Assembly: GCA_032622095.1 (NCBI GenBank) | Contig: CP136064.1 | Location: 5,635,512 to 5,699,511, forward strand | Length of the DNA: 64,000 bases | Source: Siphonodentalium dalli | Lineage: Eukaryota; Mollusca; Scaphopoda; Gadilida; Siphonodentaliidae | Direction of reading: 5' to 3' | In this document: positions 2,590-64,000 of the stretch, piece by piece | How positions within the stretch are numbered: position 1 is the first letter of the stretch | Layout: each line of letters begins with the position of its first letter | Position numbers and translations under genes: made by a program | The notes under the pieces: model-generated | What the model saw: the letters and a program-made list of their open reading frames with translations, nothing else | What the model was told of the DNA's origin: nothing | Databases searched by the model: none

Positions 2590-2660
2590 TAGTTAGACCT
2601 AGACTCTGCTTTGTTACATGTAACTTTCCATGACTGGATCTTTGTGAAATTTTGCATTTC

Positions 2661-3276
2661 ATATATAAGATCTCGGTCGCCTCGCATATATAAGATCTCG
2701 GTCGCCTCGCATATATAAGATCTCGGTCGCCTCGCATATATAAGATCTCGGTCGCCTCGCATATATAAGATCTCGGTCGCCTCGCATATATAAGATCTCG
2801 GTCGCCTCGCATATATAAGATCTCGGTCGCCTCGCATATATAAGATCTCGGTCGCCTCGCATATATAAGATCTCGGTCGCCTCGCATATATAAGATCTCG
2901 GTCGCCTCGCATATATAAGATCTCGGTCGCCTCGCATATATAAGATCTCGGTCGCCTCGCATATATAAGATCTCGGTCGCCTCGCATATATAAGATCTCG
3001 GTCGCCTCGCATATATAAGATCTCGGTCGCCTCGCATATATAAGATCTCGGTCGCCTCGCATATATAAGATCTCGGTCGCCTCGCATATATAAGATCTCG
3101 GTCGCCTCGCATATATAAGATCTCGGTCGCCTCGCATATATAAGATCTCGGTCGCCTCGCATATATAAGATCTCGGTCGCCTCGCATATATAAGATCTCG
3201 GTCGCCTCGCATATATAAGATCTCGGTCGCCTCGCATATATAAGATCTCGGTCGCCTCGCATATATAAGATCTCGG
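2661..3276. repeat. 25-bp satellite, 24.6 near-identical copies
   Basis: Unit atatataagatctcggtcg plus cctcgc, repeated with no base difference that I can see over 616 bases, so it is young or efficiently homogenised. Twenty-one of the 25 bases (ggtcgcctcgcatatataag plus a) match one half of the hairpin module of the TTAA MITEs in this window. The long minus-strand open frame is a product of a unit without stops (three units = 75 bases = 25 codons) and is not called as a gene. Confidence 0.96.
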
Positions 3277-3548
3277 TTTTTACATTGTCCAGATGATAAC
3301 TTCAGCAATATTCAACAGAATTTCTTGAAATTTGGTACATGGTTCACATTTGAGAGGATGCAGGCCAAGTTCGATTATGGTCCGATGATTTCAGATGGAG
3401 TTAAGCCCCTTTTTTAATGCCACCTCGTTCGGGGGACCATGGGGTCTGCAACCTTTTTTCTGGCATATTTTATCTGTAAAACTGTTTGTTTTTCCCACAA
3501 TCCTCGATTATTACCACTATGTGACACTTGTTCGGGCATTTCAATCCC
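3277..3548. other. Unannotated spacer
   Basis: AT-rich spacer between the 25-bp array and the next MITE fragment. No recognisable repeat, exon or motif. A short open frame begins at 3395 but runs on into the MITE, so it is not a gene. Confidence 0.5.
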
Positions 3549-3552
3549 TTAA

Positions 3553-3674
3553 CCCTTTACCCAACAGAATGGCCCGTTGCCAATGCATTCTCTTATATAT
3601 GCGAGTCGACCATAGGTCGCCTCGCATATATAAGAGAATGCATTGGCTTAACACATTAAAAATTATAAAATTGG
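3553..3674 (+). mobile_element. piggyBac-like MITE fragment, family B1
   Basis: Follows a TTAA (3549-3552) with the B1 terminus ccctttacccaacagaa, then one complete hairpin module (gccaatgcattctcttatat .. 3580-3647). It breaks off after 'cattaaaaattataaaattg'; the right half and the second TTAA are missing. 5' fragment of the element seen whole at 17094, 27967, 29689 and 36346. Confidence 0.85.
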
Positions 3675-21798: not shown

Positions 21799-24560
21799 AG
21801 TTCACCTACTTCTCGTAGTCTGGTGTGGTATTAAGCTATTCATCTCATCTCATAGTCGGGGTATGGTATTAAGCCATTCACCTATGTCCTGTAGTCTGTG
21901 TGTGTTATTAAGCCATTCAACTACATGTACATGTATGTCTCGTATTCTGGGTGTTGTATTAAGCCATTCACCTACATCTCGTAGTCTGGTGTGGTATTAA
22001 GCCATTCACCTATGTCTCGTAGTCTGGTGTGGTACTAAGCCATTCACCTATGTCTCGTAGTCTGGTGTGGTACTAAGCCATTCACCTATGTCTCGTAGTC
22101 TGGTGTGGTACTAAGCCATTCACCTATGTCTCGTAGTCTGGTGTGGTATTAAGCCATTCACCTCATCTCATAGTCGGGGTATGGTATTAAGCCATTCACC
22201 TATGTCCTGTAGTCTGTGTGTGTTATTAAGCCATTCAACTACATGTACATGTATGTCTCGTAAATCTGGGTGTGGTATTAAGCCATTCACCTCTGTCTCG
22301 TAGTCTGGTGTGGTATTAAGCTATTCATCGCATCTCATAGTCCAGGTATGGTATTAAGCCATTCACCTATGTCTCATAGTCTGGTATGGTATTAAGCCAT
22401 TCACCTACATGTATGTCTCATAGTCTGGTGTTGTATTAAGCCATTCACCTCATCTCATAGTCGGGGTATGGTATTAACTCATTCACCTATGTCTCGTAGT
22501 CTGGTGTGGTATTAAGCCATTCACCTATGTTTCATAGTCTGGTGTGGTATTAAGCCATTCACCTATGTCTCGTAGTCTGGTGTGGTATTAAGCCATTCAC
22601 CTACGTCTGGTAGTCTGGTGTGGTATTAAGCCATTCACCTCATCTCATAGTCGGGGTATGGTATTAAGCCATTCACCTATGTCCTGTAGTCTGTGTGTGT
22701 TATTAAGCCATTCAACTACATGTACATGTATGTCTCGTAATCTGGGTGTTGTATTAAGCCATTCACCTACATCTCGTAGTCTGGTGTGGTATTAAGCCAT
22801 TCACCTCTGTCTGGTAGTCCAGGTATGGTATTAAGCCATTCACCTATGTCCTGTAGTCTGGTGTTGTATTAAGCCATTCACCTATGTCTCGTAGTCTGGT
22901 GTGGTATTAAGCCATTCACCTCATCTCATCTCATAGTCCGGGTATGTTATTAAGCCATTCACCTCATCTCATAGTCGGGGTATGGTATTAAGCCATTCAC
23001 CTATGTCTCGTAGTCTGGTATGGTATTAAGCCATTCACCTATGTCTCGTAGTCTGGTATGGTATTAAGCCATTCACCTATGTCTCATAGTCTGGTGTGGT
23101 ATTAAGCCATTCACCTCATCTCATAGTCCAGGTATGGTATTAACTCATTCACCTCATCTCATAGTCCAGGTATGGTATTAACTCATTCACCTATGTCCTG
23201 TAGTCTGGTGTGGTATTAAGCCATTCACCTATGTCTCATAGTCTGGTGTGGTATTAAGCCATTCACCTCATCTCATAGTCCAGGTATGGTATTAACTCAT
23301 TCACCTCATCTCATCTCATAGTCCGGGTATGGTATTAACTCATTCACCTCATCTCATAGTCCAGGTATGGTATTAACTCATTCACCTATGTCCTGTAGTC
23401 TGGTGTGGTATTAAGCCATTAACCTATGTCCTGTAGTCTGTGTGTGTTATTAAGCCATTCAACTACATGTATGTCTCGTAATCTGGGTGTTGTATTAAGC
23501 CATTCACCTATGTCTCGTAGTCTGGTATGGTATTAAGCCATTCACCTCATCTCATCTCATAGTCCGGGTATGTTATTAAGCCATTCACCTCATCTCATAG
23601 TCGGGGTATGGTATTAAGCCATTCACCTATGTCTCGTAGTCTGGTATGGTATTAAGCCATTCACCTATGTCTCGTAGTCTGGTATGGTATTAAGCCATTC
23701 ACCTATGTCTCATAGTCTGGTGTGGTATTAAGCCATTCACCTCATCTCATAGTCCAGGTATGGTATTAACTCATTCACCTCATCTCATAGTCCAGGTATG
23801 GTATTAACTCATTCACCTATGTCCTGTAGTCTGGTGTGGTATTAAGCCATTAACCTATGTCCTGTAGTCTGTGTGTGTTATTAAGCCATTCACCTATGTC
23901 TCGTAGTCTGGTGTGTTATTAAGCCATTCACCTACATCTCGTAGTCTGGTGTTGTATTAAGCCATTCACCTATGTTTCATAGTCTGGTGTGGTATTAAGC
24001 CATTCACCTCATCTCATCTCATAGTCCGGGTATGGTATTAAGCCATTCACCTCATCTCATAGTCCAGGTATGGTATTAAGCCATTCACCTATGTCCTGTA
24101 GTCTGTGTGTGTTATTAAGCCATTCAACTACATGTACATGTATGTCTCGTAATCTGGGTGTTGTATTAAGCCATTCACCTACATCTCGTAGTCTGGTGTG
24201 GTATTAAGCCCTTCACCTATGTCTTGTAGTCTGGTGTGGTATTAAGCCATTCACCTCATCTCATCTCATAGTCCGGGTATGGTATTAAGCCATTCACCTC
24301 ATCTCATAGTCCAGGTATGGTATTAAGCCATTCACCTATGTCCTGTAGTCTGTGTGTGTTATTAAGCCATTCAACTACATGTACATGTATGTCTCGTAAT
24401 CTGGGTGTTGTATTAAGCCATTCACCTACATCTCGTAGTCTGGTGTGGTATTAAGCCATTCACCTACGTCTCGTAGTCTGGTGTTGTATTAAGCCATTCA
24501 CCTCATCTCATAGTCGGGGTATGGTATTAACTCATTCACCTACCGTATGTCCTGTTAGTA
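21799..24560 (+). repeat. 38-bp satellite, roughly 70 copies, with higher-order structure
   Basis: Unit cacctatgtctcgtagtctg followed by gtgtggtattaagccatt. Recurrent variants: 'cacctcatctcatagtccag', 'cctgtagtctgtgtgtg', and a longer form with 'caactacatgtacatgtatg'. These variants recur in the same order in larger blocks (for instance at 22200, 22690, 24080 and 24320), showing multi-unit duplication. Degenerate units continue to ~24760. No open frame. Confidence 0.94.
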
Positions 24561-24758
24561 GCCATGCAACTATGTCTCGTAGTCTGGTGTGGTACTAAGC
24601 CAGTGAAAGTATTCAACTACTAGTACATGTATGAAACATTAACTGGGGGCTGTTTTTAAGTCATTAAACTATGTCTTGTTGTCTGTATCAAAGAATTAAA
24701 CAATTTCTCTTCACAGGGCCGATTTTAAGCCATTCAACTCATCTTGTTGGTATGGTAT

Positions 24759-32397: not shown

Positions 32398-33245
32398 AAC
32401 ACAAGAACACATTGATAAGACCATTCTAATGAGTAAGAACCCATTGATAAGACCATTCTAATGAGTAAGAACCCATTGATAAGACCATTCTAATGAGTAA
32501 GAACCCATTGATAAGACCATTCTAATGAGTAAGAACCCATTGATAAGACCATTCTAATGAGTGAGAACACATTGATAAGACCATTCTAATGAGTGAGAAC
32601 ACATTGATAAGACCATTCTAATGAGTAAGAACCCATTGATAAGACCATTCTAATGAGTAAGAACCCATTGATAAGACCATTCTAATGAGTGAGAACACAT
32701 TGATAACACCATTCTAATGAGTAAGAACCCATTGATAAGACCATTCTAATGAGTGAGAACACATTGATAAGACCATTCTAATGAGTAAGAACCCATTGAT
32801 AAGACCATTCTAATGAGTAAGAACCCATTGATAAGACCATTCTAATGAGTGAGAACACATTGATAAGACCATTCTAATGAGTGAGAACACATTGATAAGA
32901 CCATTCTAATGAGTGAGAACACATTGATAAGACCATTCTAATGAGTAAGAACCCATTGATAAGACCATTCTAATGAGTAAGAACCCATTGATAAGACCAT
33001 TCTAATGAGTGAGAACACATTGATAACACCATTCTAATGAGTAAGAACCCATTGATAAGACCATTCTAATGAGTAAGAACCCATTGATAAGACCATTCTA
33101 ATGAGTGAGAACCCATTGATAAGACCATTCTAATGAGTAAGAACCCATTGATAAGACCATTCTAATGAGTAAGAACCCATTGATAAGACTATTCTAATGA
33201 GTAAGAACGCATTGACAAGACCATCCTAATGAGTAAGAACACCAT
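32398..33245 (+). repeat. 32-bp satellite, ~26 copies, two variants
   Basis: Unit gataagaccattctaatgag followed by taagaacccatt or tgagaacacatt. The two variants alternate in blocks. 'gataacacc' occurs in two copies with identical neighbours (32701 and 33018), showing a block duplication of ~317 bases. No coding potential. Confidence 0.95.
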
Positions 33246-33519
33246 TATAATCAGTAAATATACTTTAAATGTGCTGTTGGGACATATGCATACTAGTATA
33301 TGAGTGAGAAGTCACTTCTCCCTGGGACAAAAATAGGGAGTATTGGCACATATTAGGGAGAAGATGTCTCCCAAGTCGCCCACTAGACTGGTCCCTGGTT
33401 TATATAAAGCCTGTTGTTTATTTCTTGTTTATCGAGCTATCCCATCGCTCCTTTCTAATTACGTAGACATAATTTGCAAATTCAAATAAGCCATGTCCAT
33501 TTAAATTGCTGGCAGGAGA

Positions 33520-55469: not shown

Positions 55470-58400
55470 GTGAGAGACGGGTTAACAGTGGCTGAATGGG
55501 AGAATCTATTGGTGAGAGACGGGTTAACAGTGGCTGAATGGGAGAATCTATTGGTGAGAGACGGGTTAACAGTGGCTGAATGGGAGAATCTATTGGTGAG
55601 AGACGGGTTAACAGTGGCTGAATGGGAGAATCTATTGGTGAGAGACGTGTTAACAGTGAATGAATGGGAGAATCTATTGGTGAGAGACGGGTTAACAGAG
55701 GCTGAATGAGAGAATCTATTGGTGAGAGACGGGTTAACAGTGGCTGAATGGGAGAATCTATTGGTGAGAGACGGGTTAACAGTGGCTGAATGGGAGAATC
55801 TATTGGTGAGAGACGGGTTAACAGTGGCTGAATGGGAGAATCTATTGGTGAGAGACGGGTTAACAGTGGCTGAATGGGAGAATCTATTGAGGCGAGAGCG
55901 GGTTAACAGTGGCTGAATGGGAGAATCTATTGAGGCGAGAGCGGGTTAACAGTGGCTGAATGGGAGAATCTATTGAGGCGGGAGCGGGTTAACAGTGGCT
56001 GAATGGGAGAATCTATTGGTGAGAGACGGGTTAACAGTGGCTGAATGGGAGAATCTATTGGTGAGAGACGGGTTAACAGTGGCTGAATGGGAGAATCTAT
56101 TGAGGCGAGAGCGGGTTAACAGTGGCTGAATGGGAGAATCTATTGAGGCGAGAGCGGGTTAACAGTGGCTGAATGGGAGAATCTATTGAGGCGAGAGCGG
56201 GTTAACAGTGGCTGAATGGGAGAATCTATTGGTGAGAGACGGGTTAACAGTGACTGAATGGGAGAATCTATTGGTGAGAGACGGGTTAACAGTGAATGAA
56301 TGGGAGAATCTATTGGTGAGAGACGGGTTAACAGTGGCTGAATGGGAGAATCTATTGGTGAGAGACGGGTTAACAGTGGCTGAATGGGAGAATCTATTGG
56401 TGAGAGACGGGTTAACAGTGGCTGAATGGGAGAATCTATTGGTGAGAGACGGGTTAACAGTGAATGAATGGGAGAATCTATTGGTGAGAGACGGGTTAAC
56501 AGTGGCTGAATGGGAGAATCTATTGGTGAGAGACGGGTTAACAGTGACTGAATGGGAGAATCTATTGGTGAGAGACGGGTTAACAGTGACTGAATGGGAG
56601 AATCTATTGGTGAGAGACGAGTTAACAGTGGCTGAATGGGAGAATCTATTGGTGAGAGACGGGTTAACAGTGACTGAATGGGAGAATCTATTGGTGAGAG
56701 ACGGGTTAACAGTGAATGAATGGGAGAATCTATTGGTGAGAGACGGGTTAACAGTGGCTGAATGGGAGAATCTATTGGTGAGAGACGGGTTAACAGTGAA
56801 TGAATGGGAGAATCTATTGGTGAGAGACGGGTTAACAGTGGCTGAATGGGAGAATCTATTGGTGAGAGACGGGTTAACAGTGGGTGAATGGGAGAATCTA
56901 TTGGTGAGAGACGGGTTAACAGTGAATGAATGGGAGAATCTATTGGTGAGAGACGGGTTAACAGTGGCTGAATGGGAGAATCTATTGGTGAGAGACGGGT
57001 TAACAGTGGCTGAATGGGAGAATCTATTGGTGAGAGACGGGCTAACAGTGGCTGAATGGGAGAATCTATTGGTGAGAGACGGGTTAACAGTGGCTGAATG
57101 GGAGAATCTATTGGTGAGAGACGGGTTAACAGTGAATGAATGGGAGAATCTATTGGTGAGAGACGGGTTAACAGTGGCTGAATGGGAGAATCTATTGGTG
57201 AGAGACGGGTTAACAGTGGCTGAATGGGAGAATCTATTGGTGAGAGACGGGTTAACAGTGGCTGAATGGGAGAATCTATTGGTGAGAGACGGGTTAACAG
57301 TGAATGAATGGGAGAATCTATTGGTGAGAGACGGGTTAACAGTGGCTGAATGGGAGAATCTATTGGTGAGAGACGGGTTAACAGTGGCTGAATGGGAGAA
57401 TCTATTGAGGCGAGAGCGGGTTAACAGTGGCTGAATGTGAGAATCTATTGGTGAGAGACGGGTTAACAGTGGCTGAATGGGAGAATCTATTGAGGTGAGA
57501 GACGGGTTAACAGTGGCTGAATGGGAGAATCTATTGGTGAGAGACGGGTTAACAGTGGCTGAATGGGAGAATCTATTGAGGCGAGAGCGGGTTAACAGTG
57601 GCTGAATGGGAGAATCTATTGGTGAGAGACGGGTTAACAGTGAATGAATGGGAGAATCTATTGGTGAGAGACGGGTTAACAGTGGCTGAATGGGAGAATC
57701 TATTGGTGAGAGACGGGTTAACAGTGGCTGAATGGGAGAATATATTGGTGAGAGACGGGTTAACAGTGACTGAATGGGAGAATGTATTGGTGAGAGACGG
57801 GTTAACAGTGGCTGAATGGGAGAATCTATTGGTGAGAGACGGGTTAATAGTGGCTGAATGGGAGAATCTATTGGTGAGAGACGGGTTAACAGTGGCTGAA
57901 TGGGAGAATCTATTGAGGTGAGAGACGGGTTAATAGTGGCTGAATGGGAGAATCTATTGGTGAGAGACGGGTTAACAGTGGCTGAATGGGAGAATATATT
58001 GGTGAGAGACGGGTTAACAGTGACTGAATGTGAGAATCTATTGGTGAGAGACGGGTTAACAGTGGCTGAATGGGAGAATCTATTGGTGAGAGACGGGTTA
58101 ACAGTGGCTGAATGGGAGAATATATTGGTGAGAGACGGGTTAACAGTGACTGAATGGGAGAATGTATTGGTGAGAGACGGGTTAACAGTGACTGAATGGG
58201 AGAATCTATTGGTGAGAGACGGGTTAACAGTGGCTGAATGGGAGAATCTATTGGTGAGAGACGCGTTAACAGTGGCTGAATGGGAGAATCTATTGGTGAG
58301 AGACGAGTTAACAGTGGCTGAATGGGAGAATCTATTGGTGAGAGACGGGTTAACAGTGAATGAATGGGAGAATCTATTGGTGAGAGACGGGTTAACAGTG

Positions 58401-61400
58401 GCTGAATGGGAGAATCTATTGGTGAGAGGCGGGTTAACAGTGAATGAATGGGAGAATCTATTGGTGAGAGACGGGTTAACAGTGGCTGAATGGGAGAATC
58501 TATTTGTGAGAGACGGGTTAACAGTGGCTGAATGGGAGAATCTATTGGTGAGAGACGGGTTAACAGTGGCTGAATGGGAGAATCTATTGGTGAGAGACGG
58601 GTTAACAGTGAATGAATGGGAGAATCTATTGGTGAGAGACGGGTTAACAGTGGGTGAATGGGAGAATCTATTGGTGAGAGACGGGTTAACAGTGGCTGAA
58701 TGGGAGAATCTATTGGTGAGAGACGGGTTAACAGTGGCTGAATGGGAGAATCTATTGGTGAGAGACGGGTTAACAGTGGCTGAATGGGAGAATCTATTGG
58801 TGAGAGACAGGTTAACAGTGGCTGAATGGGAGAATCTATTGGTGAGAGACGGGTTAACAGTGGCTGAATGGGAGAATCTATTGGTGAGAGACGGTTAACA
58901 GTGGCTGAATGGGAGAATCTATTGGTGAGAGACGGTTAACAGTGGCTGAATGGGAGAATCTATTGGTGAGAGACGGTTAACAGTGGCTGAATGGGAGAAT
59001 CTATTGGTGAGAGACGGTTAACAGTGGCTGAATGGGAGAATCTATTGGTGAGAGACGGGTTAACAGTGAATGAATGGGAGAATCTATAAGTGAGAGACGG
59101 GTTAACAGTGGCTGAATGGGAGAATCTATTGGTGAGAGACGGTTAACAGTGGCTGAATGGGAGAATCTATTGGTGAGAGACGGGTTAACAGTGAATGAAT
59201 GGGAGAATCTATTGGTGAGAGACGGGTTAACAGTGGCTGAATGGGAGAATCTATTGGTGAGAGACGGGTTAACAGTGGCTGAATGGGAGAATCTATTGGT
59301 GAGAGACGGTTAACAGTGGCTGAATGGGAGAATCTATTGGTGAGAGACGGGTTAACAGTGAATGAATGGGAGAATCTATTGGTGAGAGACGGGTTAACAG
59401 TGGCTGAATGGGAGAATCTATTGGTGAGAGACGGGTTAACAGTGGCTGAATGGGAGAATCTATTGGTGAGAGACGGGTTAACAGTGGCTGAATGGGAGAA
59501 TCTATTGGTGAGAGACGGGTTAACAGTGGCTGAATGGGAGAATCTATTGGTGAGAGACGGGTTAACAGTGGCTGAATGGGAGAATCTATTGGTGAGAGAC
59601 GGGTTAACTGTGGCTGAATGGGAGAATCTATTGGTGAGTGACGGGTTAACAGTGGCTGAATGGGAGAATCTATTGGTGAGAGACGGGTTAACAGTGGCTG
59701 AATGGGAGAATCTATTGGTGAGAGACGGGTTAACAGTGGCTGAATGGGAGAATCTATTGGTGAGAGACGGGTTAACAGTGGCTGAATGGGAGAATCTATT
59801 GGTGAGAGACGGGTTAACAGTGGCTGAATGGGAGAATCTATTGGTGAGAGACGGGTTAACAGTGGCTGAATGGGAGAATCTATTGGTGAGAGACGGGTTA
59901 ACTGTGGCTGAATGGGAGAATCTATTGGTGAGAGACGGGTTAACAGTGGCTGAATGGGAGAATCTATTGGTGAGAGACGGGTTAACAGTGGCTGAATGGG
60001 AGAATCTATTGGTGAGAGACGGGTTAACAGTGGCTGAATGGGAGAATCTATTGGTGAGAGACGGGTTAACAGTGGCTGAATGGGAGAATCTATTGGTGAG
60101 AGACGGGTTAACAGTGACTGAATGGGAGAATCTATTGGTGAGAGACGTGTTAACAGTGAATGAATGGGAGAATCTATTGGTGAGAGACGGGTTAACAGTG
60201 GCTGAATGGGAGAATCTATTGGTGAGAGACGGGTTAACAGTGACTGAATGGGAGAATCTATTGGTGAGAGACGTGTTAACAGTGAATGAATGGGAGAATC
60301 TATTGGTGAGAGACGGGTTAACAGTGGCTGAATGGGAGAATCTATTGGTGAGAGACGGGTTAACAGTGGCTGAATGGGAGAATCTATTGGTGAGAGACGT
60401 GTTAACAGTGGCTGAATGGGAGAATCTATTGGTGAGAGACGGGTTAACAGTGGCTGAATGGGAGAATCTATTGGTGAGAGACGGGTTAACAGTGGCTGAA
60501 TGGGAGAATCTATTGGTGAGAGACGGGTTAACAGTGGCTGAATGGGAGAATCTATTGGTGAGAGACGGGTTAACAGTGGCTGAATGGGAGAATCTATTGG
60601 TGAGAGACGGGTTAACAGTGGCTGAATGGGAGAATCTATTGGTGAGAGACGGGTTAACAGTGGCTGAATGGGAGAATCTATTGGTGAGAGACGGGTTAAC
60701 AGTGGCTGAATGGGAGAATCTATTGGTGAGAGACGGGTTAACAGTGGCTGAATGGGAGAATCTATTGGTGAGAGACGGGTTAACAGTGGCTGAATGGGAG
60801 AATCTATTGGTGAGAGACGGGTTAACAGTGGCTGAATGGGAGAATCTATTGGTGAGAGACGGGTTAACAGTGAATGAATGGGAGAATCTATTGGTGAGAG
60901 ACGCGTTAACAGTGAATGAATGGGAGAATCTATTGGTGAGAGACGCGTTAACAGTGAATGAATGGGAGAATCTATTGGTGAGAGACGGGTTAACAGTGGC
61001 TGAATGGGAGAATCTATTGGTGAGAGACGCGTTAACAGTGGCTGAATGGGAGAATCTATTGGTGAGAGACGCGTTAACAGTGAATGAATGGGAGAATCTA
61101 TTGGCGAGAGACGGGTTAACAGTGGCTGAATGGGAGAATCTATTGGTGAGAGACGGGTTAACAGTGAATGAATGAGAGAATCTATTGGCGAGAGACGGGT
61201 TAACAGTGGCTGAATGGGAGAATCTATTGGTGAGAGACGCGTTAACAGTGAATGAATGAGAGAATCTATTGGTGAGAGACGGGTTAACAGTGGCTGAATG
61301 GGAGAATCTATTGGTGAGAGACGGGTTAACAGTGGCTGAATGGGTGAATCTATTGGTGAGAGACGGGTTAACAGTGGCTGAATGGGAGAATCTATTGGTG

Positions 61401-64000
61401 AGAGACGCGTTAACAGTGAATGAATGGGAGAATCTATTGGTGAGAGACGGGTTAACAGTGGCTGAATGGGAGAATCTATTGGTGAGAGACGGGTTAACAG
61501 TGGCTGAATGGGAGAATCTATTGGTGAGAGACGGGTTAACAGTGGCTGAATGGGAGAATCTATTGGTGAGAGACGGGTTAACAGTGAATGAATGGGAGAA
61601 TCTATTGGTGAGAGACGGGTTAACAGTGGCTGAATGGGAGAATCTATTGGTGAGAGGCGGGTTAACAGTGGCTGAATGGGAGAATCTATTGGTGAGAGAC
61701 GGGTTAACAGTGGCTGAATGGGAGAATCTATTGGTGAGAGGCGGGTTAACAGGGGCTGAATGGGAGAATCTATTGGTGAGAGACGGGTTAACAGTGGCTG
61801 AATGGGAGAATCTATTGGTGAGAGACGGGTTAACAGTGGCTGAATGGGAGAATCTATTGGTGACAGACGGGTTAACAGTGGCTGAATGGGAGAATCTATT
61901 GGTGAGAGGCGGGTTAACAGTGGCTGAATGGGAGAATCTATTGGTGAGAGACGGGTTAACAGTGGCTGAATGGGAGAATCTATTGGTGAGAGACGGGTTA
62001 ACAGTGGCTGAATGGGAGAATCTATTGGTGAGAGACGGGTTAACAGTGAATGAATGGGAGAATCTATTGGTGAGAGACGGGTTAACAGTGGCTGAATGGG
62101 AGAATGTATTGGTGAGAGACGGGTTAACAGTGGCTGAATGGGAGAATCTATTGGTGAGAGACGGGTTAACAGCGGCTGAATGGGAGAATCTATTGGTGAG
62201 AGACGGGTTAACAGAGGCTGAATGGGAGAATCTATTGGTGAGAGACAGGTTAACAGTGGCTGAATGGGAGAATCTATTGGTGAGAGACGGGTTAACAGAG
62301 GCTGAATGGGAGAATCTATTGGTGAGAGACGGGTTAACAGTGAATGAATGGGAGAATCTATTGGTGAGAGACGGGTTAACAGTGAATGAATGGGAGAATG
62401 TATTGGTGAGAGACGGGTTAACAGTGGCTGAATGGGAGAATCTATTGGTGAGAGACGGGTTAACAGTGGCTGAATGGGAGAATCTATTGGTGAGAGACGG
62501 GTTAACAGTGAATGAATGGGAGAATCTAATGAGGCGAGAGACGGGTTAACAGTGGCTGAATGGGAGAATCTATTGGTGAGAGACGGGTTAACAGTGGCTG
62601 AATGGGAGAATCTATTGATGAGAGACGGGTTAACAGTGAATGAATGGGAGAATCTATTGGTGAGAGACGTGTTAACAGTGGCTGAATGGGAGAATCTATT
62701 GGTGAGAGACGTGTTAACAGTGGCTGAATGGGAGAATCTATTGGTGAGAGACGGGTTAACAGTGGCTGAATGGGAGAATCTATTGGTGAGAGACGGGTTA
62801 ACAGTGAATGAATGTGAGAATCTATTGGTGAGAGACGGGTTAACAGTGTCTGAATGGGAGAATCTATTGGTGAGAGACGGGTTAACAGTGGCTGAATGGG
62901 AGAATCTATTGGTGAGAGACGGGTTAACAGTGGCTGAATGGGAGAATCTATTGGTGAGAGACGGGTTAACAGTGAATGAATGTGAGAATCTATTGGTGAG
63001 AGACGGGTTAACCGTGAATGAATGGGAGAATCTATTGGTGAGAGACGGGTTAACAGTGGCTGAATGGGAGAATCTATTGGTGAGAGACGGGTTAACAGTG
63101 AATGAATGGGAGAATCTATTGGTGAGAGACGGGTTAACAGTGGCTGAATGGGAGAATCTATTGGTGAGAGACGGGTTAACAGTGGCTGAATGGGAGAATC
63201 TATTGGTGAGTGACGGGTTAACAGTGGCTGAATGGGAGAATCTATTGGTGAGAGACGGGTTAACAGTGGCTGAATGGGAGAATCTATTGGTGAGAGACGG
63301 GTTAACAGTGGCTGAATGGGAGAATCTATTGGTGAGAGACGGGTTAACAGTGGCTGAATGGGAGAATCTATTGGTGAGAGACGGGTTAACAGTGGCTGAA
63401 TGGGAGAATCTATTGGTGAGAGACGGGTTAACAGTGGCTGAATGGGAGAATCTATTGGTGAGAGACGGGTTAACAGTGGCTGAATGGGAGAATCTATTGG
63501 TGAGAGACGGGTTAACAATGGCTGAATGGGAGAATCTATTGGTGAGAGACGGGTTAACAGTGGCTGAATGGGAGAATCTATTGGTGAGAGACGGGTTAAC
63601 AGTGGCTGAATGGGAGAATCTATTGGTGAGAGACGGGTTAACAATGGCTGAATGGGAGAATCTATTGGTGAGAGACGGGTTAACAGTGGCTGAATGAGAG
63701 AATCTATTGGTGAGAGACGGGTTAACAGTGGCTGAATGAGAGAATCTATTGGTGAGTGACGGGTTAACAGTGGCTGAATGGGAGAATCTATTGGTGAGAG
63801 ACGGGTTAACAGTGGCTGAATGGGAGAATCTATTGGTGAGAGACGAGTTAACAGTGGCTGAATGGGAGAATCTATTGGTGAGAGACGGGTTAACAGTGGC
63901 TGAATGGGAGAATCTATTGATGAGAGACGGGTTAACAGTGGCTGAATGGGAGAATCTATTGGTGAGAGACGGGTTAACAGTGGCTGAATGGGAGAATCTA
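55470..64000. repeat. 42-bp satellite, about 200 copies, running off the window
   Basis: Unit gtgagagacgggttaacagt + ggctgaatgggagaatctat + tg. Common variants: gtgaatgaatg, gtgactgaatg, cgcgtt, and a 43-base form with gaggcgagagcggg (55890-56200, 57409 and 57585). A cluster of 41-base units (gagacggttaac) lies at 58890-59310. Higher-order copies: a 167-base block at 59116 repeated at 59283, and a 126-base block at 60100 repeated at 60226. Because 42 = 3 x 14, one + frame reads a 14-residue repeat VRDGLTVAEWENLL and one - frame is also open. One-base indels and in-frame stops (for example at 55707 and 61173) break these frames at random, which argues against a protein. Non-coding satellite. 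Confidence 0.95.

Follow-up and report, generated by a model that had tools for sequence, protein, structure and literature searches.

The DNA analysed here, termed the window, is a 64,000 nt stretch of the Siphonodentalium dalli genome. It lies on contig C4, and the genome searched comprises 2.23 Gb in 9 contigs. Near its 5′ end the window carries a minisatellite between the end of a hairpin-bearing element and an older dispersed repeat. The features are as follows.

2621–2654, + strand: left end portion of a TTAA-type element that carries a hairpin (TAACTTTCCATGACTGGATCTTTGTGAAATTTTG); hairpin sequence follows in L034 and L037
2654–2660, + strand: GCATTTC, probably what is left of the hairpin 5′ arm (GCATTCTC); loss of the hairpin centre would have joined it to the first unit
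2660–3277, + strand: minisatellite array of 24 perfect CATATATAAGATCTCGGTCGCCTCG units and a further 18 bp; the 25-mer is found genome-wide only in this array
3268–3435, + strand: older dispersed repeat, which at its start overlaps the last unit of the array (ATCTCGG aligned on ATCTCAG of the consensus); profile score 182.3 bits
3549–3647, + strand: start of a nearby element (TTAACCCTTTACCCAACAG) and its 69-bp hairpin module (hairpin 3579–3647); fold −35.4 kcal/mol

The array measures 618 bp with a unit of 25 bp, and its 24 copies and terminal 18 bp show a 100% match. A preliminary description of this DNA had placed about 24 identical copies at 2661–3276; the copy number stands and the bounds shift to 2660–3277. 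It had also termed the array a satellite. Satellite DNA forms long arrays and/or displays the same unit at many loci. The 25-mer CATATATAAGATCTCGGTCGCCTCG occurs 24 times in the genome and the 17-mer CATATATAAGATCTCGG 25 times, every occurrence being inside this array. An older, widespread array, which the preliminary description had named as a possible objection, is thereby ruled out for this genome, and the satellite label is too strong for a sequence confined to one locus. The unit falls within the minisatellite range, given as approximately 15–100 bp in excerpts of PMC3618361.

The unit shares 21 of its 25 bases with the 3′ arm of a 69-bp hairpin. The hairpin at 3579–3647 (3580–3647 in the preliminary description) has arms of 33 nt that are 97% complementary and 3 nt apart, and the 21-mer GGTCGCCTCGCATATATAAGA forms the start of the 3′ arm immediately past the 3-nt loop. 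As single-stranded DNA the 69-nt module gives a predicted fold of −35.4 kcal/mol (z = −15.6); 69 nt of the array give −2.8 kcal/mol (z = +1.6). Besides its 24 occurrences within the array, the 21-mer is found at 15 further sites in the window, 8 on the + strand and 7 on the − strand. A strict two-arm pattern detects 19 hairpin modules in the window, fewer than the more than 20 copies previously claimed.

Genome-wide, a 45-bp core of the hairpin has 105,419 exact copies (52,869 + 52,550), and the reversed control has 0. Because the core is so abundant, the 21-base identity is not attributable to chance, and a coincidental likeness of unit and hairpin is ruled out. That the shared word might be a common unrelated motif had been named as a possible objection; the word is indeed common genome-wide, yet it is common because the hairpin itself is. 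The identity across the 105,419 cores suggests that the hairpin either spread in a recent burst or is under constraint. Three hairpin words were found in no paper of an open-licence library. Among the matches listed, several core copies form inverted pairs about 148 bp apart. Also among the matches listed, hairpin copies at C1:742225–785841 and C1:837603–915829 are spaced at about 14.5 kb and about 11.2 kb, a regularity that suggests multi-kb units repeated in tandem.

The left flank of the array is the end of an element of the TTAA type, a putative piggyBac-like MITE. The sequence at 2621–2654 recurs in L034, where it is followed by nearly the whole hairpin, and in L037, where the hairpin that follows has no 5′ arm. 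At 115 other genomic places (54 + 61; 100 of the 115 listed) the motif TCCATGACTGGATCTT leads within 16–46 bases into the 5′ arm GCATTCTCTTATATATG, a pattern that ends at the 5′ arm and does not imply that each hairpin is whole. Since the left-flank motif elsewhere leads into the hairpin 5′ arm, the array occupies the place where such an element carries its hairpin. The usual reading of the left end among the matches listed is TCCATGACTGGATCTTCCTGAAATTTTGCGAAAACCCTGTGCCAATGCATTCTC; the window differs from it at 2 of the first 29 bases and then continues as GCATTT-CATATATAAGA. The left-end motif followed by CATATATAAGA within 10–40 bases is found at five places, this array and four others. Two of the four (L098 and L099) are hairpins with the centre deleted, and their edge is like the left edge of the array, although the letters at that edge are few. 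The relatives L088 and L099 begin with TTAACCCTTCCATGAC and L099 ends with GTCATGAAAGGGTTA; the element at the array shows GTAACTTTCC at its end and lacks a right end. The unit is homologous to part of a MITE (21/25 bases) and the array is contiguous with the element, as in a MITE-derived tandem repeat.

At the right flank, window positions 3268–3435 match a profile of the dispersed repeat, built from 49 copies from 28 loci, with 182.3 bits (E = 2.2e-55). Copies elsewhere are approximately 77–87% identical in the longer matches and up to 89% in short pieces (40 of 1729 candidates scored). The consensus of this first profile reads AAATCTCAG before TTTTTGCGTTGTCC, and because of this the ATCTCGG at the end of the last unit aligns on ATCTCAG, the locus having CGG where the profile has CAG. 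When the array flanks are joined, the score is 183.6 bits with one partial unit kept and 176.0 with none. Random window DNA put in place of the 57 bases before the flank scores as high in 9 of 3000 trials (10 of 3000 in a repeat run). The query that fetched the paralogs included 17 array bases. A profile made from the 22 copies not picked by array letters gives 79 of 3000 as high (P = 0.026) and a consensus of AAATTACAG instead of AAATCTCAG. ATCTC itself is present in 6 of the 34 copies that could be parsed, out of 49. The earlier statement that only TCTC is new may need correcting, the right-flank repeat being a possible source of TCTC (9/3000; 79/3000 in the less biased comparison).

Duplications of the hairpin arm are not confined to this locus. 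Direct copies of the arm CTCGCATATATAAGA at a period of 15–28 form 108 pairs genome-wide, and the control shows 0. The 100 pairs listed represent at least 45 loci with 40 distinct units, and 8 loci have three or more copies. Some loci, e.g. the two on C8, have identical units and may stem from a single event by copying. Widening the period to 15–45 gives 632 arm pairs, which among the matches listed are all on C1 and mostly in one array. This array has a 45-bp unit starting with the same hairpin arm; it is present at 76,783,540, 76,790,000 and 76,794,000 and absent at 76,798,000 and 76,802,000. If continuous it spans 10.6–14.5 kb, ending between 76794150 and 76798000 (L093–L096), and is a hairpin descendant on the scale of a satellite.

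The seven other loci with three or more copies are likewise arm-derived arrays, contiguous with hairpin or element sequence. As judged by eye in eight arrays, the present one counted among them, six exit into the outer arm of the hairpin (GAATRCATTGG or a variant), the exceptions being the array at 2660–3277 and L090, and two (L086 and L088) retain the full 5′ arm. L086, L087, L088 and L091 carry an element left end of the same kind as the array at 2660–3277.

At 26 of the 45 loci the junctions fit a simple tandem duplication of hairpin sequence, with 0–4 bp of microhomology (100 of the 108 pairs listed), and random letters are explained this way in 0.2% of cases. The other 19 loci, among them the array at 2660–3277, require filler or diverged letters. 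With each distinct unit counted once, 22 of 40 are explained, with a mean microhomology of 1.14 as compared to 0.68 for random joints (P = 0.0096). The excess for the 26 loci is reached in 0 of 20,000 resamplings, stronger than the value per distinct unit, with a null that is crude, uniform breakpoints on a few typed consensus templates. At the present array GGT opens the duplicated segment and also comes directly after it (GGTCGCC and GGTTTTT).

A second hairpin element (arm AAATTCACCCTCTGG) shows 36 arm pairs grouped into 26 loci, 4 of them with three or more copies. As its word belongs to another hairpin element, these loci are evidence for generality and not for specificity. Small arrays of this element with periods of 23–28 bp are found at C3:203023397, C3:267400667, C4:15936789 and C9:15017916. 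A non-hairpin word from the right-flank repeat (CAATATTCAACAGAA) has 699 genome copies, too few against the more than 100,000 of the hairpin for a comparison of duplication rates.

The array is probably a young minisatellite that arose where it now lies, its source being the hairpin of a small element of the TTAA type adjoining an older dispersed repeat. A deletion would have joined ...CATATATAAGA in the 3′ arm of the hairpin to (A)TCTC(A/G)G-TTTTT in the neighbouring repeat, giving GGTCGCCTCGCATATATAAGA-TCTC-GGT. Slippage, template switching or break repair would then have produced a tandem duplication of this 25-bp segment, which begins with GGT and has a second GGT directly behind it, and the 5′ arm and centre of the hairpin would have been lost at the left edge of the array. 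Slippage or unequal exchange may have expanded and homogenised the array to 24 perfect copies. An inverted repeat would thereby have become a direct repeat that no longer folds. The anatomy is read directly from the letters, and we infer the order of the steps and the enzymes. The earlier proposal of a recent conversion of a MITE hairpin into a tandem array is thus supported, by the 21 of 25 shared bases and by the left flank being an element end. As conversion in situ is most likely, the module 900 bases away need not be involved. All units of the array are the same, and the flank formed by the element departs from its usual reading at 2 of 29 bases. The identities fit an age order, from old to young, of repeat, element and array, although the identity of the units may also stem from homogenisation. 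No function beyond repeat evolution is needed.

The weakest step of the in situ explanation is the origin of TCTC, which likely derives from the right-flank repeat, and the explanation was graded lower because the 22-copy profile gave 79 of 3000. In a variant that overlaps the best explanation, the array is likewise born in situ but TCTC would be untemplated filler or a copy from the hairpin 5′ arm (CATTCTCTT). This variant has a substantial minority chance of being correct. Filler is required at other loci too (19/45), and the 22-copy profile favours the repeat only weakly (79/3000); the first profile, however, favours the repeat (9/3000), and the last unit continues unbroken into it.

An unlikely alternative places the source of the unit at a distance. 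A polymerase at the right repeat would have switched to a hairpin elsewhere, e.g. that at 3579–3647, copied 21 bases and returned; the chimeric duplication would then have expanded, the element end on the left being a bystander. The unit does combine letters of the hairpin and of the neighbouring repeat, and 105,419 identical donor cores are available. However, element ends like the one on the left normally run into such a hairpin, so no distant donor is needed, and the other arrays sit within their own hairpins.

An assembly artefact, in which a shorter true array was expanded or the flanks were misjoined, is very improbable, for although short reads cannot tell 24 identical copies apart, arrays of the same logic are found at other loci. 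Least probable is an origin of the array within a copy of a mobile element that then transposed to this site. MITEs that carry tandem repeats are known (excerpts of PMC12628747 and PMC9659126), but neither the 25-mer nor the 17-mer has a second site in the genome, and the element lacks its right half.

Birth in place from a hairpin may also have a wider form. The hairpin could act as a minisatellite nursery, its folding provoking errors of replication or repair by which one arm becomes a direct tandem repeat, often with deletion of the partner arm, and loss of the hairpin would then let arrays grow. With more than 100,000 identical hairpin cores in the genome, this would have happened dozens of times independently and would once have led to an array of more than 10 kb, a reading which is put forward tentatively and is more doubtful than the origin proposed for the single array.

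Conversion of a MITE or foldback element into a tandem array is already established, and the array at 2660–3277 belongs to that kind. The Xstir tandem repeats of Xenopus derive from a MITE (Hikosaka and Kawahara 2004, as excerpted via PMC12628747 and PMC9659126), with the source region listed as TIR in PMC9659126. The excerpts describe a tandem repeat made from a MITE, composite loci of MITE plus array, and a stem-and-loop in the proposed mechanism, all of which resemble the present case; here, however, a single arm of a compact 69-bp hairpin, extended by four bases, makes up the unit, and there have been many events, most of them small. In miDNA4 of Xenopus tropicalis (Scalvenzi and Pollet 2014, excerpted via the same two sources, PMC12628747 and PMC9659126) the MITE is considered to have picked up a repeat that was already there. 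The likeness as excerpted lies in microhomology-driven change in the copy number of tandem units inside a MITE and in element ends lost over time, whereas the unit here is derived from the hairpin and not from a captured repeat.

Tetris TIR-220 of Drosophila virilis is described in excerpts of PMC4079207 as a foldback-type element, part of whose inverted repeat was duplicated into growing tandem arrays. An inverted-repeat part is likewise turned into tandem units here, but the Tetris units are approximately 220 bp, inside a mobile element and amplified in beta-heterochromatin. The units in this genome are 21–28 bp, with one array alternating 28 and 30 and another having 45. Minisatellites derived from transposable elements, e.g. 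from Alu, are noted in excerpts of PMC9659126 and are similar in that a short-unit array arises within a dispersed element; the source here differs in being a palindromic hairpin whose inverted order is lost.

The present case adds one arm of a compact hairpin as the source, a possibly chimeric unit, and many replicate events in one genome. Accounts of how transposable elements become tandem repeats usually rest on a small number of finished satellites. This genome offers a series with readable junctions, from hairpins that are whole or have lost their centre, through dozens of loci with a two-copy duplication, to arrays of 4–24 copies and one of more than 10 kb, if continuous. Breakpoints, the amount of microhomology, any need for loss of the partner arm and any role of hairpins as hotspots, the first steps of the process, thereby become countable.

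The window carries other repeats as well. A 17-bp direct repeat (CTGCTTTGTTACATGTA) at 2360–2376 and 2606–2622 flanks a long palindrome at 2375–2591; at 17 bp it is long for a target-site duplication. Four further large tandem arrays are present.

1–1348: tandem array, 51 bp × 26
21801–24602: tandem array, 38 bp × 56 and more
32403–33250: tandem array, 32 bp × 26.5
55470–64000: tandem array, 42 bp × 203
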